Source of the DNA: Enterobacterales bacterium
Lineage (GTDB): Bacteria > Pseudomonadota > Gammaproteobacteria > Enterobacterales > Enterobacteriaceae
Assembly: GCA_015655145.1 (NCBI GenBank)
Contig: JAATFO010000049.1
Coordinates: 1 to 64,000, forward strand
Length of the DNA: 64,000 nt
Direction: 5' to 3'
This document shows, piece by piece, positions 27,373 through 41,440 of this stretch (its first letter is position 1; the number at the start of each line of letters is the position of its first letter). Made by a program: the position numbers and the translations under genes. The notes under the pieces are model-generated. The model saw only the letters and a program-made list of their open reading frames with translations. It was not told where the DNA came from and made no database searches.

Positions 27373-27647
27373 TTATTGGCATCCCGTCATGTCCAGAAAG
27401 ACCATTGCCGTCGCTACGGCGGTGCGCTTGTTAGCGTCGTTGAAGCCATTACCTCGTGTTATCGATAGCAGCCGCGCGGCCGCCAGAACAAACAGGTCTG
27501 CTTCGCTGTCGTAAACATGAAGATTTTCGAGGCAGGCCACCATCCCTTCAGCCAGTCCAGTATCTCTGAACCACGAAAACTGCCGTATGCTTCCAACGGG
27601 CTGTCGTGGATAGCGATAACCTACCCGACAGTTAAATAGAACATCAT
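27373..27647 (-). pseudogene. Doc-like (Fic/Doc) toxin remnant
   Basis: On the - strand a frame ending at TAA 27373-27375 reads through ACLENLHVYDSEADLF and then NGFNDANKRTAVATAMVFL. This is the Doc pattern, with the Fic-motif position HPFxDGNKRT changed to NGFNDANKRT, so the catalytic His is replaced by Asn. The upstream part VIAIHDSPLEAYGSFRG lies in another frame after a TAG, so the gene has at least one stop and one frameshift. Its ATG overlaps the stop of an antitoxin fragment, as in true toxin-antitoxin pairs. Confidence 0.7.
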
Positions 27648-27778
27648 TTATCGGCCAGTTGCCTGAGCAGGGCCTGATTTTTCGGCGGGTTCATCGCTTT
27701 AGCAAGGGATGACTCAAACGTAGTCCGTCGCAAGGCTGCAAACTGCTCAGCGTTTATCACAACAACATCCGGGGCCAT
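27644..27778 (-). pseudogene. Antitoxin C-terminal fragment upstream of the doc remnant
   Basis: A 44-codon - strand frame, VVVINAEQFAALRRTT then NPPKNQALLRQLADK, resembling the C-terminal toxin-binding part of DUF1778/RHH-type antitoxins. The DNA-binding N terminus is not found in frame upstream. The stop overlaps the start of the doc remnant (ATGA). The family call is tentative. Confidence 0.45.
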
Positions 27779-28201
27779 TATTACCGTACTGGAATCGCGC
27801 TGTAGGCGAAGACAGGGGATGCCAAAAAATGGTTAAAAACCGGCGGTATCACACAGAACGCGCGCTGGCCGTTTAATAAAGAGCGACTATATCGGCGAAA
27901 TGACACGCATGAGTTTCACCACCTGCAACAGTAATTTCAGCGAGATATTGTCGTTGCTTTGCGTGTTTGCACTGCGCGGGAAAAAACCGAATTTATTGTT
28001 TGCACATTTTCTTCACAACATGAAAATAAATTGTTTGTTATATGTTTCATTAATGTAATTTTGGCTATTTTGTGCGGAACGTTGCAGCAATCAATAAAAA
28101 TAGTGTTAACAATTATACGTCACTTACTTTACACTAATACCATTATTGGTTTCACCGGACATGTTCATTTGGTTTCTCTTGTTTGTCTCTCCCGGGGAAA
28201 A

Positions 28202-28705
28202 ATGCCTGCGGTTATTGCCATTCTGGCAATGCTGTTGCTTTTTATTGCTCCGGAAGTGTCAAAAACGCTGGCACATCAGCGGATGGAGAACCGTGAAGAA
28301 CAGGCCCATTCATCAACACTCGATAACCAGCATGAGATGGTCATGATGATGAGCGCATCCGGTGGTGGTGACGCTACCGATACCATGCCTGGCATGGACA
28401 TGAGCGATATGCAGATGCCCAGCCATTCTGGCGCGGACAGCAGCCACACGATGCCTGATATGATGATGCACCACGCCGGTATGGGCGAGATGATGGATGA
28501 CGCCGCCTGCGGCTATTGCGTCATGCTTATGCATATGCCGGTGCTGTTGCTGATTTTTGCGGCTATTATCTGGCTGGCGTTTAACCTGTCTGTCGCTCCG
28601 CCGCCTCGTCTCATTACTCGCCGTTTTTCTCTTTATTTTCCCGGTGTTTCTCAGCCACGTGCGCCCCCTCATTCCTTCATTGCTGTTTTTCAGATCGTTC
28701 ACTGA
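28202..28705 (+). CDS. DUF2946-family Met/His-rich membrane protein
   Basis: 167 residues. Hydrophobic N terminus (residues 1-20), then a polar stretch (55-100) very rich in Met, His and Asp with repeats of the type MPGMDMSDMQMP, then CGYC (103-106) and His111 before a second membrane segment (112-132). The CxxC-plus-His feature is the DUF2946 hallmark; such genes often lie beside metal-linked TonB receptors. The Met/His cluster suggests copper or silver binding in the periplasm. The start is placed at ATG 28202 with GGGGA just upstream; an open frame extends further but looks non-coding. Confidence 0.7.
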   Translation: MPAVIAILAMLLLFIAPEVSKTLAHQRMENREEQAHSSTLDNQHEMVMMMSASGGGDATDTMPGMDMSDMQMPSHSGADSSHTMPDMMMHHAGMGEMMDDAACGYCVMLMHMPVLLLIFAAIIWLAFNLSVAPPPRLITRRFSLYFPGVSQPRAPPHSFIAVFQIVH

Positions 28706-28715
28706 AAACTACCCC

Positions 28716-28906
28716 GTTTAAAACGTATGCGTGCCGCGCAGGAATTGTGACGTTTTAATATTTTTCCTGGCAGCTGAAATAATCCTGGTTTTTATTTCTA
28801 TGGGTTAAGAAATAACTTGCTGAAATTAACTGGTTTAAAACCTATGCGTGCCGCGCAGGAATGATGACGTATTAATCGTCTTCCGGGTAAGCTGAAATAA
28901 TACTGG
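28716..28906 (+). repeat. Tandem 73-74 bp direct repeat in the cioAB leader
   Basis: Two copies, 28716-28788 and 28833-28906 (period 117), each beginning GTTTAAAAC and containing TATGCGTGCCGCGCAGGAAT and GCTGAAATAAT. The rest differs by scattered changes. Each can form a small stem between CAGGAA and TTCC. They lie between the DUF2946 stop and the oxidase start, in the 315-base leader. This may be a paired regulator site or a duplicated RNA motif; I recognise neither. Confidence 0.75.
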
Positions 28907-29020
28907 ATCCGATTTTCGGGACCCGGCAATACACTGCTACAGATAATCACTGTTTATCTGTTCTTTGCGCTTACCCGCACATAAACACACCTGGCGGAAA
29001 TAATTGTTCAGAGGTAAGCA

Positions 29021-30433
29021 ATGTTTGGATTAGATGCCTTTCACCTGGCAAGGATACAGTTCGCCTTTACTGTCTCCTTTCATATTATTTTCCCGGCCAT
29101 CACTATCGGTCTCGCCAGTTTTCTGGCGGTGCTCGAAGGAATGTGGCTGAAAACCCGTCATGAGACCTATCGCGATCTCTACCATTTTTGGTCCAAAGTC
29201 TTTGCTGTTAACTTCGGTATGGGCGTGGTTTCCGGACTGGTGATGGCTTATCAGTTCGGCACCAACTGGAGCGGTTTCTCGCAATTTGCCGGCAGTATTA
29301 CCGGTCCGCTGCTCACGTATGAAGTGTTGACCGCCTTCTTCCTTGAAGCGGGCTTCCTCGGCGTGATGCTGTTTGGCTGGAACCGCGTCGGACCCGGTCT
29401 GCACTTCTTCGCTACCTGCATGGTGGCCCTCGGTACCCTTATCTCCACCTTCTGGATTCTGGCCTCCAACAGTTGGATGCACACGCCGCAGGGCTACATT
29501 ATCGAGAATGGTATTGTGGTGCCGCAGGACTGGCTGAAGATTGTGTTTAATCCATCGTTCCCGTATCGGTTGCTGCATATGTCGGTGGCGGCCTTCCTCG
29601 CCAGCGCGTTTTTTGTTGGCGCATCGGGCGCATGGCATCTGCTGCGCGGTAATGACAATCCGGCGATTCGCACCATGTTCTCCATGGCGTTGTGGATGGC
29701 GCTGATTGTGGCACCCATTCAGGCCGTTATCGGTGATGCACACGGCCTGAACACCCTTGAACATCAACCCGCAAAAATTGCCGCGATTGAAGGTCACTGG
29801 GAAAACTCACCGGGTAAAGCCACGCCGCTGATCCTTTTCGGGATTCCGGATATGGATCAAGAACGGACCAAATACGCGCTGGAAATACCGTATCTCGGTA
29901 GTCTGATTCTGACGCATAGCCTGAGCAAACAGGTCCCGGCACTGACGGATTTCCCGAAAGAAGACCGCCCGAATTCACAGGTGATCTTCTGGTCCTTCCG
30001 GGTGATGGTGGCGATGGGACTGTTGATGCTCACTCTGGGGGGAGTCAGTCTGTGGCTGCGGAGTAAAAACCGCCTGTACAGCTCGCGCCCATTCCTGTGG
30101 TTTGCCCTGTTGATGGGGCCGTCCGGACTGATTGCGATTCTGGCGGGCTGGTTTACAACTGAAATCGGTCGTCAGCCGTGGGTAGTGTATGGCGTGCAAC
30201 GTACGCTGGATGCGGTATCGGCACATGGCGATTTGCATATGAGCATCAGCCTGCTGGCGTTCATTCTGGTTTACTGCTCGGTGTTTGGCGTCGGTTACGT
30301 TTATATGATGCGTCTGATTAAGCAAGGGCCGATACCCGGTGAGGGGCACGATGCGATGCATGGGGGGCCGGGCCAGAGTAACACGCCAGCACGTCTGCTG
30401 TCGGCCGTCAGCCATCAGGAAGGAGCCCGCTGA
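29021..30433 (+). CDS. cioA: Cyanide-insensitive cytochrome bd-type quinol oxidase subunit I
   Basis: 470 residues, CydA family, inner membrane, oxidises quinol and reduces oxygen to water. Heme ligands fit E. coli CydA: His21 (b595), His186 and Met329 (b558). Glu101 and Glu109 of the proton/heme pocket are present, as is GRQPW at 383-387. The Q-loop (residues 240-310) is short, as in the CIO branch that resists cyanide. AGAGG lies upstream of ATG 29021. It is followed one base after its stop by subunit II. No copper is needed by this enzyme. Confidence 0.95.
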   Translation: MFGLDAFHLARIQFAFTVSFHIIFPAITIGLASFLAVLEGMWLKTRHETYRDLYHFWSKVFAVNFGMGVVSGLVMAYQFGTNWSGFSQFAGSITGPLLTYEVLTAFFLEAGFLGVMLFGWNRVGPGLHFFATCMVALGTLISTFWILASNSWMHTPQGYIIENGIVVPQDWLKIVFNPSFPYRLLHMSVAAFLASAFFVGASGAWHLLRGNDNPAIRTMFSMALWMALIVAPIQAVIGDAHGLNTLEHQPAKIAAIEGHWENSPGKATPLILFGIPDMDQERTKYALEIPYLGSLILTHSLSKQVPALTDFPKEDRPNSQVIFWSFRVMVAMGLLMLTLGGVSLWLRSKNRLYSSRPFLWFALLMGPSGLIAILAGWFTTEIGRQPWVVYGVQRTLDAVSAHGDLHMSISLLAFILVYCSVFGVGYVYMMRLIKQGPIPGEGHDAMHGGPGQSNTPARLLSAVSHQEGAR

Positions 30434-30434
30434 G

Positions 30435-31439
30435 ATGATTGACTATTCAATAATCTGGTTCGCGATAATCGTCTTCGCCATTTTGATGTATATCGTGATG
30501 GACGGTTTTGACTTGGGCATTGGCCTGATTTTCCCGTTTAACACGGACCCTGGCGAGCGCGACATTATGGTAAACACCGTTGCGCCAGTGTGGGACGGTA
30601 ACGAAACCTGGTTAATCCTCGGCGGCGCTGGTCTGTTTGGCGCGTTTCCACTGGCCTATGCGGTGATTGCCGATGCGCTGGCGATTCCGCTGACGGCAAT
30701 GCTGATTGGACTGATATTCCGGGGTGTGGCGTTCGAGTTTCGGTTCAAGGCGACAGAAACGCACCGTCCGTTTTGGGATAACGCCTTTATTGGTGGTTCG
30801 GTCCTGACGGCGTTCAGTCAGGGGGTTGCGGTGGGGGCGATTATTGATGGCTTCCCGGTCAGTGGGCGCGAATTCGCGGGTTCGCCGCTTGACTGGTTGG
30901 CGCCGTTCCCGCTGTTTTGCGGTGTCGGCCTGGTGGTGGCATATGCGCTGCTTGGCTGCACCTGGCTTATCATGAAAACCGAGCATGAACTGCATCGTAA
31001 GATGTCGGCGCTGGCCATACCGCTGGTGGTGGCACTGTTGGTGATTGTCGGCATTATCAGTCTGTGGACGCCGCTCAGCCACGAAGCGATTGCGCAACGC
31101 TGGTTTAGCCGTCCGAATTTGTACTGGTTCTTGCCGGTGCCAATTCTGGTGTTGTTGTGTGCGCTGGGTATCGTGCGTGCTATCCACCGTAACGCGCACT
31201 ATTCCCCGTTCCTGCTGACGTTAGCGCTGATTTTTCTCGGCTTTTCCGGGTTGGGGATTAGCGTGTGGCCGACCATTATTCCTCCCGCTATCACCCTCTG
31301 GCAGGCGGCATCTCCGGTGATTAGCCAGGCATTTATGCTGGTAGGTAGTTTGCTGATTATTCCGGTGATTCTGGGTTACACCTTCTGGAGCTACTACGTG
31401 TTCCGCGGAAAAGTCAACGCTGATGGCGGCTATCACTGA
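30435..31439 (+). CDS. cioB: Cytochrome bd-type quinol oxidase subunit II
   Basis: 334 residues, CydB family, eight to nine membrane segments. The N terminus contains IVMDGFDLGIGLIFPF and VWDGNETWLILGGAGLFGAFP, both highly conserved. ATG 30435 lies one base after the CioA stop and has AGGAG at 30421-30425; an in-frame start at 30339 lies inside cioA. It forms the heterodimer with CioA. Confidence 0.95.
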   Translation: MIDYSIIWFAIIVFAILMYIVMDGFDLGIGLIFPFNTDPGERDIMVNTVAPVWDGNETWLILGGAGLFGAFPLAYAVIADALAIPLTAMLIGLIFRGVAFEFRFKATETHRPFWDNAFIGGSVLTAFSQGVAVGAIIDGFPVSGREFAGSPLDWLAPFPLFCGVGLVVAYALLGCTWLIMKTEHELHRKMSALAIPLVVALLVIVGIISLWTPLSHEAIAQRWFSRPNLYWFLPVPILVLLCALGIVRAIHRNAHYSPFLLTLALIFLGFSGLGISVWPTIIPPAITLWQAASPVISQAFMLVGSLLIIPVILGYTFWSYYVFRGKVNADGGYH

Positions 31440-31453
31440 TGACGGAGGCAGAT

Positions 31454-31600
31454 ATGGAACTAAAGCATAAGCAAAAGTCACCGCTCTGGAAAGGGTTCTT
31501 CTGGATGGTGGCTATCTGGTTACTGAGCGTGTTGGCGCTTGGCGCCGTGTCAATGTTGTTCCGTTTGCTGATGACCGCTGCGGGAATGAGGAGCCATTGA
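31454..31600 (+). CDS. DUF2474 small oxidase-associated peptide (CydX-like)
   Basis: A 48-residue protein with one membrane helix: charged start (MELKHKQKSPLWKG), then FFWMVAIWLLSVLALGAV, then RLLMTAAGMR. This is the DUF2474 pattern, found after CydB-type genes and analogous to the CydX stabilising subunit. GGAGG at 31444-31448 sits five bases before ATG 31454, and the gene starts 14 bases past the cioB stop. Confidence 0.85.
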   Translation: MELKHKQKSPLWKGFFWMVAIWLLSVLALGAVSMLFRLLMTAAGMRSH

Positions 31601-31714
31601 GTCATTTCATGAGCGGTTTGCGCAAAGAAAAAATGAGGATCCGTTTTTCAGTTTCGCCAGGTAACGGACTCATCTCCCTGAGATTATGCAGCTATTAAGA
31701 AGGATAATGTATTA

Positions 31715-33997
31715 ATGAGGCGGTGGAATGTTATGCGCCATTGCAGGCTTGCGCTCGCAATGAGTACTTTTTTAGCTGCCAGCGTATTGGCGCGGGAGCA
31801 GGCCGATACGCCGGCTGAAACCGCGGTTGACAAGCCAGCGCTTGTCAACCAGTCCATTTCCGGCATTACAGACGACGCGACGCAGGGCGCCCGGACGCTG
31901 AAAGCACGCCGGGGAATACATTTGCGTTCGGTTGCGCGCAGCGAATTAGCGCAATCGGTCGTCGCGTCGTCACAAAGCAAGTCGACCGTTCCCCAGAAAT
32001 CGATCGTGGTTGCCGCCCAACAAACCAGCTACGCTGCGGCAGAGTCGGCATCAGCCACACGGACCGATACGCCTTTAAGTGAGATCCCGCAGTCTGTTCA
32101 GGTGGTGACCCGTAAGTTAATTGAGGAGCAGGACCGGCGCACGCTCAGCGATGCGCTGGTCAACGTTTCCGGGGTGTCGCCAACCCGAACGGAAGAGGTA
32201 TTGTTCGCTCAACCTATCGTGCGTGGTTTCCCGGCTGAAATCTACCTTGACGGTTTGCCGGCATTTGGCGGTACCGCCGCCACCATTGACTCAGCCAGTC
32301 TGGTGGGAACTGCGCAGATTGACGTACTTAAAGGGCCGACTTCGGCCCTGTACGGCGGCGGCGTAGGCGCACCGCTGGGCGGGTTGATCAATATGGTGTC
32401 GAAGCGGCCGGAAGCCGAGGCGGAAGGGATGGTGGGCATGCGCACCGGACGTTTCTCCACGCTGAATCCTTATGCTGATCTGAATGTCCCTTTGGGCGAT
32501 AACGTTGCCGCGCGGATTTCAGCCGAATATCAGGAAAATGACAGTTGGATCGACCATGTCGATAGCCACAACTGGTCTGTTCAACCGAGTATCGCCTTCC
32601 AGCTTTCTCCGCAGACCGAGCTGATATTTCGGGGGCAATACAATCGACGCAGCCAGGTTGAATATTCTGGTCTGCCGGCCGCCCAGGCTCTGTCAGGAGC
32701 GATTGACCGTTACGCTTATCCGGGGGCAACCGAGGGACAGCCACGCACCACGATCGAGAATCAGGTGACGACGCTTGAACTCAAACACTGGTTCAGTGAT
32801 GAGACCGCGCTCACCGTCACGGGTCGTTATTACGACAATAACATTCGGGACTATGGCAGTTTTATTACCGATGCGCCTGATTCGTCGCGACCCACCGTCT
32901 ATGCTATTTCTGCGCTCTATCTGCCAACGAACACCGAAGAAAGTACCTTCGATGCCAACTTGTCGACCAACATCGATGCGTTGGGAGGGCATCATGAGCT
33001 GCTGGCTGGTATCAACTATGACTATACCGATTTCAGTTCGGCGGTATCCGGCGCGATACCCATCGGCTCACTGGATCTGGCCCACCCGAGTTATGGACTG
33101 TCATATGGATCGACACCAGAAACGCTGGTTACACAGACGAACCGTTATGTGACAACCGCTGCCTACTTACAGGATCAGGCGAGCTGGGGGCGCTTACATC
33201 TGCTGGGTGCGTTACGAATGACGCAACTTGGGCTGCGTCAGGCCGAGCAGAATGTCGATACCCACTACCAGCGCATGACGTACCGCGCCGGGCTGAGCTA
33301 TGATCTGACCGACAGTTTGTCGGCCTATACCGCCTATGCGACGGGTTTTCGTGGCGCGTTCAATTTCGTCGGTGTTGATACCCCCAAGCCGGAAACGTCC
33401 CGCAACTATGAAATCGGGCTAAAGTTGGCACAGAAGGATCTCGGTCTTGCGGGAACCCTCGCCGTGTTTGAGCAGACACGCCGCAATGTTGCCACGAGCG
33501 ATCCTGATCCTGATCGCGCACTGCTCGGTTATAGCGTCCAGACGGGCGAACAGCGCGCACGTGGGGTAGAGATTGATATGACCTGGGAGCCCACGCCCGC
33601 ATTCTCATTGCTTGCCAATTACGCCTATACACAGGCGGAAGTGACGGAAGACAACAGCATCGAGCCTGGTAGCGGGTTGCCGCGCGTGCCGCGTAATAGC
33701 GGGCGTATTGCCGCTCGTTATCGCGTGCTGGACGGCGTTGCCAAAGGCCTGGCGTTCGGCGCGGGGATTACGGCGGTCAGCGCGCGTGAACTCACTTTGC
33801 CTAACACGGTGTCAGTGCCCGGCTATGCGATGGCGGACGCACAGGCTTCCTATGCGTTCGATCGTTATACGGTCGCGCTTGCGGTGGTAAACCTGACCGG
33901 CACCAAAGCCTTTGATAGCTACGAATACCTCGGATTACCGGTTGTGATACCGGTTCAGCCGCGTTCAGTCTACCTCTCGCTGAGCGCCCACTTTTAA
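31715..33997 (+). CDS. TonB-dependent siderophore-type outer-membrane receptor
   Basis: 760 residues. Signal peptide (residues 1-27, ending SVLAREQ), a long linker, then the plug domain (PLSEIPQSVQVVTRKLIEEQD, IVRGF, IDVLKGPTSALYGGG) and a 22-strand barrel ending in SLSAHF with a C-terminal Phe. The plug start and GGxGGLINMVSKRP are typical of FhuE/FpvA/FptA-type receptors. AAGAAGGA lies upstream of the ATG. No Fur box was seen in front of it, and it follows the bd-oxidase genes directly, so its ligand may be a copper or other metallophore instead of an iron siderophore. Confidence 0.88.
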   Translation: MRRWNVMRHCRLALAMSTFLAASVLAREQADTPAETAVDKPALVNQSISGITDDATQGARTLKARRGIHLRSVARSELAQSVVASSQSKSTVPQKSIVVAAQQTSYAAAESASATRTDTPLSEIPQSVQVVTRKLIEEQDRRTLSDALVNVSGVSPTRTEEVLFAQPIVRGFPAEIYLDGLPAFGGTAATIDSASLVGTAQIDVLKGPTSALYGGGVGAPLGGLINMVSKRPEAEAEGMVGMRTGRFSTLNPYADLNVPLGDNVAARISAEYQENDSWIDHVDSHNWSVQPSIAFQLSPQTELIFRGQYNRRSQVEYSGLPAAQALSGAIDRYAYPGATEGQPRTTIENQVTTLELKHWFSDETALTVTGRYYDNNIRDYGSFITDAPDSSRPTVYAISALYLPTNTEESTFDANLSTNIDALGGHHELLAGINYDYTDFSSAVSGAIPIGSLDLAHPSYGLSYGSTPETLVTQTNRYVTTAAYLQDQASWGRLHLLGALRMTQLGLRQAEQNVDTHYQRMTYRAGLSYDLTDSLSAYTAYATGFRGAFNFVGVDTPKPETSRNYEIGLKLAQKDLGLAGTLAVFEQTRRNVATSDPDPDRALLGYSVQTGEQRARGVEIDMTWEPTPAFSLLANYAYTQAEVTEDNSIEPGSGLPRVPRNSGRIAARYRVLDGVAKGLAFGAGITAVSARELTLPNTVSVPGYAMADAQASYAFDRYTVALAVVNLTGTKAFDSYEYLGLPVVIPVQPRSVYLSLSAHF

Positions 33998-34008
33998 GGA
34001 GTCACTCC

Positions 34009-34842
34009 ATGATTGATAATGATCGCCGTAACCTGCTGCTCGGTGCACTTCTTACGCCGCTGGCAGCGAGCATGTCGTTTGGCGCCAGCGGTGCGACCGA
34101 TATGTCGATGTCGGACCACACCATGCCGGACATGGGCCGTGATATGGATAACGTTCACTGGATGGGGAACGAACAGATCGCCATGCTGGTCTATCCGGGT
34201 ATGACCGTTATGGACTTAGTCGGACCGCATTGCATGTTTGGCGCACTGATGGGGGCGAAGATCCACATTGTCGCCAGAACGCGTGAGCCGGTGACCAGCG
34301 ACGCCGGGTTGACCGTGGTGCCCAATGCCACCTTCGATAGTTGTCCAAAAAATCTGACGGTCCTGTTCACGCCGGGCGGTACGGATGGCACGCTGGCAGC
34401 GGCTTCCGACCCACAGACGCTGGAGTTCATGGCTGATCGCGGGGCGCGAGCAAAATATGTTACCAGCGTCTGTTCCGGTTCGCTGATCCTTGGCGCTGCG
34501 GGGTTGCTTAAAGGCTATAAGGCGACGTCACACTGGTCATGCCGTGAAGCGCTGGCCAGATTTGGCGCCATCCCCACCGAGGCGCGCGTTGTGCGCGATC
34601 GCAACCGGATTACCGGCGCCGGTGTCACTGCGGGACTGGACTTCGGATTGACGATGGTCGCTGAACTGCGTGACCAGATCTATGCCGAATGTACTCAACT
34701 GATGAGCGAATATGATCCACATCCCCCTTTCAATGCCGGATCGATGAAGACTGCGCCGCCCGAGGTAAAAAAGGCGATGATTGAACTGGCAGCTGATTTC
34801 ACGAAGAAAGCCGATGCGCTGGCGTCAAAAATGAAAGGTTAA
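34009..34842 (+). CDS. Exported DJ-1/PfpI protein, isonitrile-hydratase-like, Met-rich leader
   Basis: 277 residues. NDRRNLLLGALL at the N terminus resembles a Tat signal. Then a Met/His/Asp-rich stretch (DMSMSDHTMPDMGRDM, residues 31-46) is followed by a DJ-1/PfpI domain. It carries MDLVGP with Asp69, the nucleophile elbow SVCSGSLILGAAGLL with Cys155, TSHW, and EYDPHPPFNAGS near the C terminus. These correspond to the isonitrile hydratase InhA (Asp17, Cys101, next residue Thr102 here Ser). It starts 11 bases after the TonB receptor stop, so export to the periplasm next to the receptor is likely. Enzyme activity is inferred. Confidence 0.8.
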   Translation: MIDNDRRNLLLGALLTPLAASMSFGASGATDMSMSDHTMPDMGRDMDNVHWMGNEQIAMLVYPGMTVMDLVGPHCMFGALMGAKIHIVARTREPVTSDAGLTVVPNATFDSCPKNLTVLFTPGGTDGTLAAASDPQTLEFMADRGARAKYVTSVCSGSLILGAAGLLKGYKATSHWSCREALARFGAIPTEARVVRDRNRITGAGVTAGLDFGLTMVAELRDQIYAECTQLMSEYDPHPPFNAGSMKTAPPEVKKAMIELAADFTKKADALASKMKG

Positions 34843-34852
34843 CCATCCCGTC

Positions 34853-34897
34853 AGCCCGGCGCTGATGGCAAGCTGACTCATCGCGCCGGCTTATTTT
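34853..34897 (+). terminator. Terminator after the cio/TonB/DJ-1 operon
   Basis: AGCCCGGCGC and GCGCCGGCT pair with one bulged C across an 18-base loop, followed by TTATTTT, about ten bases past the stop at 34842. Confidence 0.7.
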
Positions 34898-34999
34898 ATC
34901 GCCAACCGACCATCAACAACGCGCAGATGGGCTATTTATTGTTCTCCTGATGGCGTTTATTGCCTGTATTCGGCCAATAAAAAAATCTTTATTGCAATT

Positions 35000-35018
35000 A
35001 ATAATCATTATCATTAAG
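35000..35018 (+). promoter_or_regulatory. Fur box upstream of fepA
   Basis: AATAATCATTATCATTAAG fits the 6-6-1-6 Fur pattern (NATWAT NATWAT N ATWATN) with one mismatch in the last hexamer. It lies 50 bases before the fepA start codon in an AT-rich promoter region, so iron repression through Fur is expected. Confidence 0.8.
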
Positions 35019-35068
35019 TTAATTTTTTTCTCTTTCTTTTTCACAAAGGGTTGGCGATTAATATCATT

Positions 35069-37363
35069 ATGAATAACAAGTATACATACTCGGTGTTGAG
35101 TTCACTCATCGTCGGCAGTCTCGTGATGTCGGCGGCACTGGCAGACGAAACCAACAGCGGGACAAACCAAAAACAGGGATAAACCAGTGATCAAGATCAG
35201 CTGAAAAAACGGGTCACCAGCGAGGCGAAAAGTAGCAGTGAAAATGCCATGGTAGTGACCGCCAGGGAACAAACATTGCAGGCGCCGGGTGTTTCTATCA
35301 TTGACAGCGAGGCGATCAAAAAACATCCTATCCAGCACGATGTTTCTGAAATTATCCGCACTATGCCGGGCGTGAACCTTACCGGCAATTCCAGCAGCGG
35401 CCAGCGCGGCAACAATCGGCAGATCGATATTCGCGGAATGGGGCCGGAAAATACCCTGATTCTGGTTGATGGTATGCCAGTGAGTAGCCGAAATTCAGTG
35501 CGTTATGGCTGGCGTGCCGAACGTGATACTCGCGGCGACAGCAATTGGGTTCCCGCCGAAATGATCGAGCGGATTGAAATTATTCGCGGCCCGGCCGCGG
35601 CTCGATACGGTAACGGCGCCATGGGTGGCGTGGTGAATATCATTACCAAACCGGCCGCCAATGCGTGGCATGGCAGTTTCAACACCTACTACAATGTGCC
35701 GGAACACAACTCTGAAGGGGCTTCCAAACGGGATAATGCCAGTTTAAGTGGGGCGCTAACGGATAACCTGACCATGCGGCTCTACGGTAACTGGAGCAAA
35801 ACGCAGGCCGATGCGCAGAATATTAACAGCGGTCATGAGGCTGAACGTAGCGGAAAATATGCCGGGCAGGTACCGGCTGGTCGTGAAGGCGTCATCAATA
35901 AAAACATTAATGGCGTATTGCGCTGGGAATTTATGCCCATGCAGGCACTGGAACTGGATGCAGGCTTCAGCCGCCAGGGCAACCTTTACGCGGGGGATAC
36001 GCAAAATACCAACAGCAGCACGCTGGTGAAAAAGTATTACGGCAAAGAGACTAACATAATTTATCGTCAGACGCTGAGCCTGAAATACACCGGTGCCTGG
36101 GATAACGGCATCACCACCAGTAACTATATTCAGTTCGAAAAAACCCGTAATACTCGCCTGAATGAAGGCTTATCAGGTGGTATTGAGGGGATGTTCAGCA
36201 GCACAGATGAAGGATTCTCAACCATCAATCTGAATGACACCAACCTGCATTCAGATGTCAATATTCCGCTCGATCTATGGGTCAATCAGACGCTCACTTT
36301 TGGTGCGGAAATGAATCATCAGACGATGAAAGATCCCACGTCGAATACCATGACCACGACATCCGGGGGGGCGGTAGACGGAGTGTCCGGTTCCGGACGC
36401 AGTGAATATAGCTCGGCCGATATTTACGGTGTTTATACCGAGGACAATATTGATCTGACCGACTCCACCCGTTTGACCCCTGGACTGCGTTTCAATCATC
36501 AGAGCATCACTGGCAGCAACATCAGTCCGTCGCTGAACCTGTCGCAGGAACTGGGTAATGATTTCACCCTAAAGTTAGGTATTGCCCGTGCCTGGAAAGC
36601 GCCTAACTTGTATCAGACCAACCCTAACTATCTGTTATACAGCAGCGGTAACGGGTGCTACGCCAGTTCCGGAAGCTGTTATTTGCAGGGGAATAAGGAT
36701 CTTAAAGCTGAAACCAGCGTGAATAAAGAGATTGGCATTGAATACCATCACGATGACGTGCAGGCGGGGTTGACCTGGTATCGCAACGACTACCACAACA
36801 AAATCGATGCGGGTTACGCAGCGGAATACTCTAACGGCACTTCAGACATCTATAAATGGGAAAACGTACCTAAAGCCGTCGTACAGGGTCTGGAAGGGAC
36901 GCTTAACTTCCCAATCAGCGAAACCATTACGATGAAGAATAACTTTACCTATATCATCGACAATGAAAATAAAACCAGCGACGATTATCTGTCGATCATC
37001 CCGAAATACACCATTAATTCGACGCTGGACTGGCAGGCCACTAACGATCTGTCGCTACAGGGTACGATGACCTGGTATGGCAGGCAGAAACCGAAGAAAT
37101 ATAATTACCAGGGAGAAGCAACCACCGGCAGTGAAACCTGGCAGGTATCGCCTTATGCTCTGTTTGGTGCGAGCGCGACCTATAACATTAACAAGTACGT
37201 GGATGTGACGGGCGGGATTGATAACCTGTTAGACAAACGGCACTACCGTGAGGGCAATGCTACAACTTCAGGAAGTTCAGGTACCTACGCCTATGGCGCA
37301 GGGGCAAGGACCTATAATGAGTCGGGTCGTACCTACTACATGGAACTGAGCTTACATTTCTGA
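35069..37363 (+). pseudogene. fepA: FepA-type enterobactin receptor with an in-frame stop
   Basis: About 765 codons counting the stop. ATG 35069 opens a signal peptide (SLIVGSLVMSAALA), but codon 38 (35180-35182) is TAA. The same frame then continues intact to 37363 with MVVTAREQTLQAPGVS, SGQRGNNRQIDIRGMGPENT, the barrel and a C-terminal Phe. Sequence blocks match enterobactin receptor FepA closely throughout. The next in-frame ATG (35249) would give a 704-residue protein without export signal. Readthrough, a sequencing error or recent loss are the options. A Fur box lies upstream and an iroE-like esterase gene follows. Confidence 0.85.
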
Positions 37364-37460
37364 TAAGAAAAAACCACCTGTCCTGACGGCTAGGGGCGGC
37401 ACGAGGGCGATATGTCCCCCGGCCTGCCCTTATCATGGTGTGAATATGGAGAATAAATCA

Positions 37461-38384
37461 ATGAATCACCGGAGGTACTATAAAAAAGGCCGGTTCATGG
37501 TTGTACATCTGAGCGCCTTTTTTTTCATCCTGATGCATGCAGGAAACAGTTATTCCCGACCAGATATGACGCCTCTGGGACCCAATATTGCGGATAAAGG
37601 CTCCTCTTTTTATCATTTCTCTGTAAGTAAATTTGATTCTGTCGATGGCAAGCGGCATTACAAAGTGTGGACCGGGATACCGGACAAAACGCCGCCGGCT
37701 TCGGGTTCTCCGGTGCTTTACATGCTGGACGGGAATGCCGTTATGGACAGGTTATCGGACGAGCTGCTGAAAAAACTGTCAGAACGAACGCCACCCGTTC
37801 TTATCGTTATCGGATATCAGACCGCACTGCCTTTTGAATCGAGCGCCAGAGCATATGATTACACGCCGTCTGTTAAAGAGAATAACACGCAAAATCAGGC
37901 AACCCGTCGTTATGACCGACAAGGCGGCGGCAGCCTAATCTTCCGCCATCTGCTTGAAGATACCATTGCACTGCAGGCAGAAAAGAACCTTAACATAAAC
38001 CCCGCTAAACGTGGCCTCTGGGGGCATTCTTATGGCGGATTATTTGTGATGGATTCTTATTTATCATCATCCTTTTTTACACGGTATTACTCTGCCAGCC
38101 CGTCGCTGGAACTCGATAATTTCGCACTGCTGAAAAAACTCACCATGATAAATAAAAAGGAGTTCGATAATAAGCAGTTGTATCTTATGGAAGGTGATGG
38201 TGATCCGAAAAAAAATGGCGAAGATAAAACCCCGGATGTACTGGGCCTGACCCGCAAAGCGGTATCCACCCTGCATTCCGAGGGCGTATCCGCAACTTAC
38301 TGGTTGTATCCCGGGTTTACTCATGGGCAGATGTTTACGGCCTCTTTTCAGAGCGCTTTATTACAGGTCGCTGCCAGTGACTAA
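37461..38384 (+). CDS. iroE: IroE-like periplasmic siderophore esterase
   Basis: About 307 residues, alpha/beta hydrolase of the IroE/Fes group that opens enterobactin or salmochelin trilactones. It has a hydrophobic N-terminal anchor (residues 13-26), GIPDKTPP and VLYMLDGNAVMDRL, the nucleophile elbow GHSYGG with Ser190, and a late GFTHGQMF with the catalytic His; IroE works with a Ser-His pair. The start is open: GTG 37440, ATG 37446 or ATG 37461, the last having GGAG at 37448-37451. It follows fepA closely and probably shares its iron control. Confidence 0.8.
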   Translation: MNHRRYYKKGRFMVVHLSAFFFILMHAGNSYSRPDMTPLGPNIADKGSSFYHFSVSKFDSVDGKRHYKVWTGIPDKTPPASGSPVLYMLDGNAVMDRLSDELLKKLSERTPPVLIVIGYQTALPFESSARAYDYTPSVKENNTQNQATRRYDRQGGGSLIFRHLLEDTIALQAEKNLNINPAKRGLWGHSYGGLFVMDSYLSSSFFTRYYSASPSLELDNFALLKKLTMINKKEFDNKQLYLMEGDGDPKKNGEDKTPDVLGLTRKAVSTLHSEGVSATYWLYPGFTHGQMFTASFQSALLQVAASD

Positions 38385-38485
38385 AAGAATAAGCCAACGA
38401 CCATTGAAAAAGTAAGCGTCAAAACATTATTGGTGTGTCGCATCATGCACAGTGCAAAAACGTCCCACCAGGAATTTTTTCGCCG

Positions 38486-39077
38486 TCAATCAGCTGTTTT
38501 AAACGTCAGGCCGCCATACAGAAATTTTCCTCGTTCGGCGCTTATGCTTTCAAGCTCACTTTCGTCTGGTTCTTCCAACAGGGTCTGGATCAGTATGCCC
38601 AGATAGCATCCGGCAAGTACATCGACGGCTATCTCATTACTAAAAAAAACCACGCTGTTGCTCCAGTTTCATGTTACGCCCGATCCATTTATGCAACCTG
38701 TTGCGCGTTGCATCACTCTGAGGTGGCTGAAACAGGCTGATTTTAGTCAGATGTGGGTGGCCGGTAAAAAATTCGAGATATTTCCTGAAGCTTGATGTGA
38801 TGTTTTCCTGCACACCCTCTTTCGGGAGAGAAGCATCAATCAACATTGAAACCATCAATTCCTCCAGCTCTGTATCAACATGTTGAACCAAGTGCAGATA
38901 TATTTCGTTCCTGGTTTTGAAATAGCGGTAGAAACTTGGTTGGGTCACGCCGGCGGCGCTGACAATATCACTCACGCGAGTGCCGAGATAACTGTGCCCG
39001 GCAAACAGCGCTGCCGAGACATCAAGCAGCCTTTGCCGGGTTTTTTCTCCTTTAGTAATGTGACGAAATTTCTTCAT
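38486..39077 (-). pseudogene. TetR-family regulator with a homopolymer frameshift
   Basis: The frame from ATG 39077 gives a TetR DNA-binding domain (TRQRLLDVSAALFAGHSYLGTRVSDIVSAAGVTQPSFYRYF, in parts) and stops at 38640 after EQQRGFF. The stop falls in a run of eight A on the + strand (38642-38649). With seven, the frame would continue SNEIAVDVLAGCYLGILI to TGA at 38486, giving a normal TetR length of about 197 residues. So one base was gained. Without the last 50 residues the protein lacks part of its dimer interface. Confidence 0.75.
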
Positions 39078-39215: not shown

Positions 39216-41440
39216 TTGTTACATCTATCATCCTTGCTGTGTAAAGATAAATTTTACCTCTACCGTTTTGTCGTGTTAATGACGACAGTGTGGGCGATAT
39301 GGGAAGCAGGCTTCGATTTTTTCCTACTCGCGCCTCGTTTTGACATTATTGTCCTGTTCGCTTTGTGGTTGCTGTTGCCGCTTACGATGCGATCATTTCC
39401 CGAAAACAGCAGGCCGGGACGGCGAGTACTGGGCGTGGCGGTGGCCTTACCCATTCTGAGCATGGCCATTTCTCTGTTTTTTAATCACCATGATATTGAA
39501 GGGAAGTCACCGGAAACTGTTGAAAATAGCGTTCCGCAATGGGATGCCCAGAATATTCCCGATGCGGAATGGCATGCCTACGGTCGCACGTTGTATGGCG
39601 ATCACTCTTCACCGCTAAAACACATCAACAGTCAAAACGTCAATCAGCTCAAGGTTGTCTGGACGTTTCATCCCAATGACATCATTGGTAAAGATGATCC
39701 ACTGGAATCTACCTTTGAGGTCACCCCGCTTAAGGTGGGGAACCGGGTTTACCTTTGTAGTCCACATCAGTGGGTATTCGCGCTTGATGCGGCAACAGGC
39801 AAGCAGGTCTGGAAATTTGATCCTAAAGTGTAGGACGACCCAACATGGCAGCACCTGACCTGTCGCGGTGTGTCTTATCATGCAACGCCTGCCGATGCGA
39901 GAACCTCAGATGGCGCTGTTCCGCCTGATGAATGTAAACAACGTATTATCCTGCCGACGAATGATGGCCGTATGTTTGCTCTCGACGCAACCACCGGTGA
40001 GGTGTGTCATGCGTTTGGTCAGAATGGTCAGAATGATCTCAAAGACGGTATGACAGTTAAAACCAAAGGTTTCTACCAGGGAACGTCGCCGCCGGTGGTG
40101 ACGCGCCAGATGATTGTTATGGCGGGCGCAGTAACTGATAACTATTCCACAGAAGAACCTTCGGGCGTGGTACGTGGTTTTGATGTCTACACCGGTAAGC
40201 TTATCTGAGCATGGGATCCAGGGGCGCTGGATGAAAACGCGTTGCCTTCTGCGACACATCATTACACCCCGAATTCGCCTAACTCCTGGACTCTCCTGTC
40301 GGCGGATGAAAAGCTCGGTATGGTGTATGTCCCGGTGGGCATGTCAACGCCAGATATTTGGGGTGGCAATCGCACTAAAACCGGAGAACGTTACACCCGC
40401 TCACTGGTGGCGCTCGACATCAATACCGGGAAACGCATTTGGTCTTATCAGACTGTCCATCACGTTCTGTGGGATATGGATTTGCCTTCACAACCCCGTC
40501 TGGTGGATTTAAAAACGGCCGACGGGGTTGTGCCGGCAATTTATGCACCGGCTAAAACGGGCAACATTTTCGTGCTTGACCGTCGTACCGGGAAGCTGAT
40601 TGTCCCCGCGCCGGAAACGCCTGTGCCGCAGGGGGCTGCACCAGATGATTATACGTCGCCAACACAACCCTATTCTGAACTGACTTTTCAGCCTAAGCAA
40701 AAACTGACCGACAAGGATATGTGGGGCGCAACCCTGTTTGATCAGATGGTGTGTCGCATTATGCTCAAACAAATGCGCTATGACGGTCCGTTTACCCCAC
40801 CTAACACGCAGGGGACACTGGTTTTCCCGGGTGACGTGGGCATGTTTGAGTGGGGGGGATTGCGGTCGATCCACAGCGCCAGATTGCGATTGCCAACCCG
40901 ATGGCATTTCCGTTTGTCTCCAAACTGATTGAACGCGGACCGGATAACCCGGCAGTACCCAATGCCGAACACCCGCCGGGAAGTGAGATTGGCGTTAAGC
41001 CTATGTATGGCACCCCTTATTGAGTTGATTTACATCCGTTCTTGTCACCGATCGGTTTGCTGTGTCCTGCTCCGCCGTGGGGTTACATTGCGGGGATCGA
41101 TCTACGGACACATAAAATCATGTGGCAACATAAGGTCGGAACCACGCGTGATGCCACACCGTTGCCGCTGCCATTTAACGTTGGTATGCCAATGCTGGGC
41201 GGCTCAATGGTCACGTCTGGCGGTGTTGCCTTCCTGACGGCAACCATGGATAACTATATCCGCGCTTTTGACGTGACAACGGGGAAAGAACTTTGGAGCG
41301 ACAGATTGCCCGCAGGTGGTCAGTCAACGCCAATGACTTACTCGGAAGGCGGCAAACAGTATATTGTTACGGCCGTCGCGGGACATGGTCGCTTTGGTAC
41401 CAAACAGGGAGATTATGTCGTTGCTTATACCTTGCCATAA
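39216..41440 (+). pseudogene. gcd: Broken PQQ-dependent glucose dehydrogenase (membrane type)
   Basis: Quinoprotein glucose dehydrogenase, periplasmic beta-propeller with an N-terminal membrane anchor. The first 70 or so residues (early membrane helices) are absent. The frame is then broken by TAG 39831-39833, TGA 40206-40208, loss of one G in the G7 run at 40852-40858 (after FPGDVGMFEWGG), and TGA 41021-41023. Between the breaks every stretch matches Gcd, e.g. CRGVSYHATPA, TPDIWGGNRT, AKTGNIFVLDRRTG, FNVGMPMLGG, ending GDYVVAYTLP. It cannot be functional. Confidence 0.9.

Follow-up and report, generated by a model that had tools for sequence, protein, structure and literature searches.

Why would the genes of a copper-free terminal oxidase stand between the gene of a probable copper-sensing leader peptide and those of a TonB-dependent receptor and an exported protein of the DJ-1/PfpI family? 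This question is raised by a set of six genes on the plus strand, at positions 28202-34842 of a 64,000-nucleotide stretch of DNA from an Enterobacterales bacterium (assembly GCA_015655145.1, contig JAATFO010000049.1, positions 1 to 64,000), which is referred to below as the window. The explanation to which we lean, with moderate confidence, is that the set forms an operon for copper starvation with a CruR-type gene at its head, with a copper-free oxidase built in and with the receptor and the DJ-1 protein scavenging chelated copper.

A preliminary description of this locus, made from the sequence alone, had named the same six families on one strand, and all of them are present, each above its Pfam cut-off. 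The tight spacing that it reported holds for the four later gaps, which measure 1, 14, 114, and 11 bp in order, and not for the first, which measures 315 bp; a further 406 bp follow the last gene before a fepA-like gene is reached. From its interpretation, the link to copper, the uptake of a chelated metal, the exported InhA-like protein and the role of CioAB as a copper-free oxidase are supported by context and have been retained, whereas the function assigned to the DUF2946 protein and a reading of the set as a conserved module have been given up, as discussed below.

A probable CruR-type leader at the head of the set

The first gene of the set (28202-28705, plus strand) encodes a Met/His/Asp-rich protein that matches DUF2946 with 47.3 bits against a cut-off of 23.7. 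The protein carries the motif CGYC, followed after 46 residues by RAPP, beyond which 11 residues remain to the C terminus. In Bordetella CruR, the spacing between CXXC and RAPP is 45 and is constant within one or two residues, and the Bordetella pertussis protein, also a member of DUF2946, senses copper through CXXC, the downstream genes being governed by arrest at the C-terminal RAPP together with Rho-dependent termination, according to the extracts of PMC9426467; the translation arrest has been demonstrated in vitro (PMC12992588, in extract). Judged by these motifs, the DUF2946 protein of the window is probably a copper-sensing leader peptide of the CruR type. The preliminary description, in which CGYC and RAPP had been overlooked, took it for a Met-rich catcher of metal; such a chaperone role was set aside, as CXXC and RAPP at the CruR spacing point to a regulator, and the Met-rich stretch may still bind metal.

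The gap behind the cruR-like gene (28706-29020, 315 bp) is of a kind that is general for CruR loci, in which long gaps precede the next gene (PMC9426467, in extract). From 28601 to about 28720, a segment that runs across the border between gene and gap, C exceeds G, and this C-rich, G-poor composition is weak evidence for a stretch suited to Rho loading. The gap also holds a direct repeat of 74 nt (28716-28788 and 28833-28906, 85% identical), of which no third copy was found within the window and which is perhaps a trace of rearrangement or a control element.

Three DUF2946 genes, including that of the window, are present in the genome. The one on contig C9, whose product likewise has CGYC and RAPP, lies directly 5' of the gene of an OprC-type copper receptor (the two at L147:5188-8010, G000); this receptor matches TIGR01778, the family of TonB-dependent copper receptors, at 828 bits where the cut-off is 472. 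The one on contig C132 is flanked by a DJ-1 paralogue (78% identical to that of the window) and a PepSY_TM gene. Elsewhere, a CruR-like DUF2946 gene is followed by receptor and DJ-1 genes, without cioAB, in four loci (L060, L061, L063, and L064), in which CXXC and R[A/G]PP are separated by 44 or 46 residues; in a fifth, L148, a DUF2946 gene (Pfam 30.8 bits) stands in the same order, also without cioAB, and its product ends with RGPP and has no CXXC.

The receptor and the exported DJ-1 protein as a recurring pair

The last two genes of the set encode a TonB-dependent receptor of siderophore type (31715-33997, plus strand; TIGR01783, 322 bits; Pfam barrel 171 bits, plug 64 bits) and a DJ-1/PfpI protein related to isonitrile hydratases (34009-34842, plus strand; DJ-1_PfpI, 91 bits). 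The N terminus of the latter is Tat-like (DRRNLLLGALL), in agreement with the preliminary description. Of 398 genomes sampled from the phylum, 61 had a homologue of this protein at E up to 1e-30; at 1e-66, homologues were found in 4 of 298 genomes of a genus of the same class (g45, presumably Pseudomonas-like), in 13 of 149 genomes of a family of another class (f44) and in 2 of 149 genomes of its own family; its own genus is represented by one genome, which matches (1/1), and a search of 369 genomes of the class at E up to 1e-62 returned the own genome only. A further scan of contigs added one locus, from Advenella. After rows below 38% identity had been dropped and identical cores merged, 58 distinct rows remained, 32 exported and 26 cytosolic, a division that was finished by hand by reading N termini. 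The broken copy L062 was assigned to the exported rows on the evidence of its first half, and L007, which was assigned to the cytosolic rows, may have an N terminus of Sec type.

Receptor and DJ-1 genes are paired in the Advenella locus (L036) and in L060, L061, L062, L063, L064, L066, and L148, both genes being broken in L062. They are also paired on three plasmids of the methanotrophs Methylosinus and Methylocystis (L080, L038, and L082), where a divergently oriented two-component system adjoins the pair and where a role in relation to copper or lanthanides is conceivable. As a side observation, the pair adjoins pqqA and mxa genes on one of these plasmids. In three loci of the family f44 (L067, L069, and L074), the genes of the receptor and the exported DJ-1 protein are separated by a second DJ-1-domain gene, and in L034 and L071 by a PepSY gene. 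The second DJ-1-domain protein is longer, at about 415-420 residues (L069:8260-9519, likewise in L067 and L074). The neighbour query EFh_69 proved to be a second DJ-1-domain protein and was dropped from the counts given below.

Genes of copper proteins accompany several of these loci. The exported DJ-1 gene has PCuAC and/or SCO1 as neighbours in L034, L069, L071, and L073; by Pfam, PCuAC follows in L069 (139 bits) and L071 (112 bits), and SCO1 is present in L034 (177 bits). Upstream of the receptor and DJ-1 genes, L067 has a gene for an Fe/Mn superoxide dismutase (L067:13805-14620, assigned by Pfam) with a stretch resembling a signal peptide before the domain, and a similar open reading frame (ORF) is present at L074:5142-6035; like CioAB, this enzyme may be a copper-sparing stand-in, here for the Cu,Zn superoxide dismutase.

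Receptor, PepSY, PCuAC and SCO1 genes and the CruR pattern were counted as copper-type neighbours if they lay no more than 1.5 kb away and on the same strand. One or more of them was present in 19 of the 32 exported rows and in none of the 26 cytosolic rows (Fisher p 4e-7; receptor alone, 17 versus 0), a comparison made among related rows that are not phylogenetically independent, with neighbour queries that came from exported loci, some of which had been chosen for closeness. If the rows of the phylum sample alone are taken, such a neighbour is present in 3 of 7 exported rows and in 0 of 23 cytosolic rows. The receptor and the exported DJ-1 protein form a recurring pair in a copper neighbourhood.

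The window receptor shares 23-68% identity with 12 receptors encoded beside exported DJ-1 genes. Besides the start Met, no Cys or Met is common to at least 9 of these 13 receptors, which favours a chelated metal as the substrate; OprC is presumably unlike this group in its shared Cys and Met. His358 of the window receptor, kept in 12 of the 13, was considered as a match to the essential His358 of CrtA and was not counted as evidence, as it lies in an L-x-H motif that we take to be common in siderophore receptors.

Relation of the DJ-1 protein to isonitrile hydratase

Compared with structures in the PDB, the DJ-1 core scores 434 bits against 3EWN, which we take to be a Pseudomonas syringae protein, and 204 bits over 212 residues against the isonitrile hydratase InhA (6NI5). 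Asp17 and Cys101, the catalytic residues of InhA, are kept in the window, in all 31 exported rows compared (the broken L062 copy being left out) and in all 26 cytosolic rows. At position 102, where InhA has a Thr that adjoins the nucleophile and is presumably important, Ser is found in the window and in six other exported rows, and Thr in 23 of the 31 exported rows; exported and cytosolic rows differ at further InhA positions (15, 19, 37, 67, 120, and more). In a tree, InhA falls within a cytosolic clade of 25 rows that has a support of 100/100 and contains no exported row, and the exported rows lie on the other side together with two rows of cytosolic type. The conserved residues suggest that the DJ-1 protein may act in the manner of InhA, though it stands outside the InhA clade.

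The motif HTMPDM, which the preliminary description had noticed in both the DUF2946 and the DJ-1 proteins, is present in both, and when the two Met/His/Asp-rich stretches were shuffled, any shared 6-mer appeared in 0.095% of 20000 trials, so that the shared motif is beyond what composition gives. In several receptor-linked members, the mature N terminus bears Met and His in the forms HTMPDM, HAMPDM, and HDMSxMP.

Isonitriles are described as copper binders and as chalkophores, both bacterial and fungal (PMC5974471, PMC9381783, and PMC10792529, in extract), and a defensive role is ascribed to isonitrile hydratases (extracts of PMC10971408 and PMC10792529). The isonitrile synthase family PF05141 was matched in none of 14 genomes that carry the exported DJ-1 gene, the own genome included, and in none of 14 control genomes; of the 29 genomes searched, only G130 gave a match. 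An isonitrile made at home by the PF05141 route was rejected on this result, other routes, such as the mycobacterial one, lying outside the search, and an isonitrile-type ligand would thus be foreign, unless another route makes it.

The oxidase genes and their setting

Between the leader and the pair lie cioA (29021-30433, plus strand), for cytochrome bd subunit I of the cyanide-insensitive type (Cyt_bd_oxida_I, 558 bits), cioB (30435-31439, plus strand), for subunit II (Cyt_bd_oxida_II, 331 bits), and the gene of a small DUF2474 protein of the oxidase (31454-31600, plus strand; Pfam 58 bits). The three are adjacent, as in cytochrome bd of the CIO type, and DUF2474 is annotated behind cioB in three of the four named cioAB loci that were inspected. 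Matches to cioA at E up to 1e-140 occur in 56 of 149 genomes of the family and in 45 of 249 of the phylum.

A single match to a heme-copper oxidase was found in the genome, which is 91.7% complete, and for this reason a copper-free oxidase would matter. Cytochrome bd is connected with copper supply in other bacteria as well: CydAB of B. pertussis is essential under copper limitation (PMC12914433), cioAB of Pseudomonas aeruginosa is reported to be upregulated in copper starvation (Frangipani 2008, as cited in an extract of PMC4831470), and in Mycobacterium tuberculosis the loss of the chalkophore and the loss of CydAB are synergistic (PMC12140626, in extract).

The proposed copper-starvation operon

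In the explanation that we favour, the ribosome would, when copper is low, stall on reaching the RAPP motif close to the C terminus of the DUF2946 leader, and the stalled ribosome would keep Rho from terminating transcription in the 315-bp gap, so that the downstream genes are made. Binding of copper to CGYC would end the stalling, and transcription would stop. This leader switch has been shown in Bordetella, and for the present locus we infer it, and with it the control of cioAB by CruR, from the anatomy of the leader and its gap. Of the genes thus released, CioAB with its DUF2474 subunit would sustain respiration without copper, and the receptor and the DJ-1 protein would scavenge a metal, probably copper, that is bound by a small organic chelator. 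The DJ-1 enzyme would most likely act in the periplasm on the imported ligand, possibly by hydrolysis, whereby copper is freed or the ligand removed. An isonitrile is the most economical guess for this ligand because the catalytic pair of InhA is kept.

A bolder version, which must be called speculative and on present evidence unlikely, would have one copper-sensing nascent peptide turn on both a copper-free oxidase and an act of piracy, in which the receptor imports foreign copper-isonitrile complexes, whose ligand is then broken down in the periplasm by a Tat-exported isonitrile hydratase so that the copper is freed; such cracking of xenochalkophores would be widespread among proteobacteria, methanotrophs included. 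The ligands would then be xanthocillin-like compounds of fungi or diisonitrile chalkophores of bacteria, and in other carriers the freed copper would pass to PCuAC or SCO1 chaperones. If the ligand is indeed a copper-isonitrile, the pair would supply an enzymatic release step for pirated chalkophores, of which no report was found among the literature matches listed, and the export of an InhA relative by many proteobacteria would be explained. In the case of CrtA, the copper importer under CruR control, a chalkophore ligand of high affinity could not be identified, according to the extract of PMC12914433, and a hydratase-like partner would offer a concrete handle on the ligand.

Alternative explanations and contrary evidence

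Several observations weigh against the preferred explanation, and they are set out here together with the alternatives on which they bear. The copper neighbourhood does not extend to every member of the exported class, since copper-type neighbours are absent from 13 of the 32 exported rows.

The alternative that survives best concerns the function of the DJ-1 protein, which could be a periplasmic carrier of copper, or a detoxifier of some other electrophile, and make no attack on isonitriles. It is compatible with the copper-starvation operon, in which the ligand is left open, and we consider it a serious possibility, if one somewhat short of even. It draws on the Met- and His-bearing mature N termini of several receptor-linked members, on Ser in place of Thr102 in the window and six other exported rows, on the class-wide differences at the further positions listed above, on the place of the exported rows outside the InhA clade, and on the outcome of the PF05141 search, which was empty for all 14 carriers and matched one other genome. 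The invariance of Asp17 and Cys101 across exported and cytosolic rows alike speaks for an enzyme of the InhA type instead.

It is less probable, and on the whole doubtful, that the oxidase is present by chance, that is, as a cioAB-DUF2474 unit inserted into a copper operon of CruR, receptor and DJ-1 genes, where it would retain a separate promoter within the 315-bp gap and be under no useful control by CruR. The comparative counts lean in this direction. Of 61 cioA loci, one, that of the window itself, has a CruR-like ORF in the 1.5 kb upstream of cioA, the 61 being the loci retrieved, which are fewer than all the matches listed. Neither cioA nor cioB was found within 6 kb of the exported DJ-1 gene in any of 26 other rows, as far as the DNA reached, and the triad of leader, receptor and DJ-1 genes occurs without cioAB in the five other loci described above. 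As the own genus is represented by this genome alone, there is no relative to confirm the arrangement. The position of cioAB between a CruR-like gene and the receptor/DJ-1 pair is known from one genome, and a conserved six-gene module was rejected on these counts, cioAB not having been seen with the pair in the 26 rows with wide context.

The sequence between the genes adds to the same side. In the gap between the cruR-like gene and cioA there are a 23-nt dyad (28939-28961) and a weak promoter-like match, and the dyad and the 74-nt repeat leave room for a promoter of cioA's own. A terminator-like match inside the DUF2474 gene (31529-31556) separates cioB from the receptor gene, so that the receptor and DJ-1 genes may be transcribed apart from cioAB; terminator-like sites in the region number 14 against 8.8 expected. 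In Escherichia coli, cioA-like DNA lies on plasmids in 26 of 5426 genomes, and the one set inspected, cioAB-DUF2474 on plasmid pEC213_1-OXA-181 (L037), stands amid transposases. Set against a chance insertion are the short downstream gaps, the functional fit of a copper-free oxidase behind a copper switch, and the length of gap that is general behind CruR (PMC9426467, in extract).

The last alternative replaces copper by iron, or by zinc, and sees in the pair a xenosiderophore receptor with an accessory enzyme. A profile built from the window receptor and its 12 relatives finds the enantio-pyochelin receptor as its best match in the PDB (368 bits), with pseudopaline/FoxA and FhuA structures also near, and ranks the CrtA structure 9RVQ 28th of 52 (160.6 bits), which places the receptor outside the CrtA sequence cluster; TIGR01778, the OprC-type family, is absent among the best 25 of 26 families matched by the window receptor, the weakest of which scores 18 bits. 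A fepA-like gene adjoins, Fur-box-like matches of 13/19 precede the cruR-like gene (28099) and lie in the gap (28936), and a cluster with a ThiJ/PfpI gene is altered in a Caulobacter zur mutant (PMC4176598, in extract). In view of the background level of such Fur-box matches, given below, and of the context of CruR, OprC, PCuAC, SCO1, and PepSY_TM, we regard iron or zinc as improbable.

Boundaries and neighbouring genes

In the region 27500-38500, the best Fur-box-like matches (15/19 and 14/19) both lie 5' of the fepA-like gene, and the gene set was for this reason ended at 34842. A level of 13/19, which is also found at 34015, is background and is reached 17 times within the window. A search of Rfam gave no match up to E 1 across 27500-35600. 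The fepA-like gene itself (35051-37363) looks interrupted: its signal-peptide part (35051-35182) runs into an in-frame stop, and the remainder resumes at 35249 in the same frame, so that it looks like a pseudogene or a sequencing problem. Farther on, three ORFs at 39216-41440 resemble, by eye, pieces of one gene for a PQQ-dependent dehydrogenase, possibly broken.

Comparison with known systems

The closest likeness is to the cruR-crtA(bfrG)-crpH operon of B. pertussis (extracts of PMC9426467, PMC12914433, and PMC13038864), with which the window shares a DUF2946 leader, CXXC and RAPP at nearly equal spacing, a long gap, and a TonB receptor behind it; B. pertussis needs its copper-free bd oxidase when copper is limiting. 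The window differs in having a receptor that is not of the CrtA type, no PepSY gene, bd oxidase genes behind the leader and, in addition, an exported DJ-1 protein. In more than 75% of loci, a PepSY_TM gene follows that of a CrtA-type receptor (PMC12914433), whereas here the following gene is that of the DJ-1 protein. The terms DJ-1 and PfpI do not occur in the main texts of PMC9426467 and PMC12914433, nor do DJ-1 and ThiJ in that of the CrpH paper, PMC13038864 (supplements were outside the scope). The combination of leader and receptor is known from Bordetella, and the literature searched appears to hold no description of an exported DJ-1 partner or of an oxidase built in, supplements and most subscription papers lying outside its scope.

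A related gene content is found in one published table, for the Caulobacter cluster CC1775-CC1782, in which DUF2946, TonB receptor and ThiJ/PfpI genes are co-regulated (PMC4176598, in extract). That cluster differs in containing SodA and a GntR regulator, cioAB is not listed in it, and it was noticed in a zur mutant, that is, in the context of zinc; its ThiJ/PfpI gene receives no discussion in the extract.

With InhA (PDB 6NI5 and 3NON), the window protein has in common the 212 aligned residues and the Asp17/Cys101 pair, and it departs from it in its Tat export, its Met/His-bearing N terminus, Ser for Thr102, its separate clade, and its receptor partner. The isonitrile hydratase of Streptomyces thioluteus acts on a copper-binding diisonitrile (Zhu 2018, by its title as cited in PMC10971408); it sits in a producer of the chalkophore, whereas the window protein, should it act in this way, would do so in the periplasm of a cell that imports a ligand of foreign origin. 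A comparable mutual backup of copper-isonitrile chemistry and a copper-free oxidase is known from M. tuberculosis, in the form of diisonitrile chalkophores and cytochrome bd (PMC12140626, in extract). That bacterium produces its isonitrile itself, whereas the search for a PF05141 synthase was negative here and the window encodes an importer and a hydratase-like protein.

CioAB of P. aeruginosa, finally, belongs to the same CioA and CioB families and is the oxidase reported to respond to copper starvation (PMC4831470, in extract). The cioAB genes of the window differ from it in their position, with a CruR-type gene on the upstream side and the genes of a receptor and an exported DJ-1 protein on the downstream side, and their insertion there would be a natural case of a copper switch set directly on a copper-free branch of respiration.

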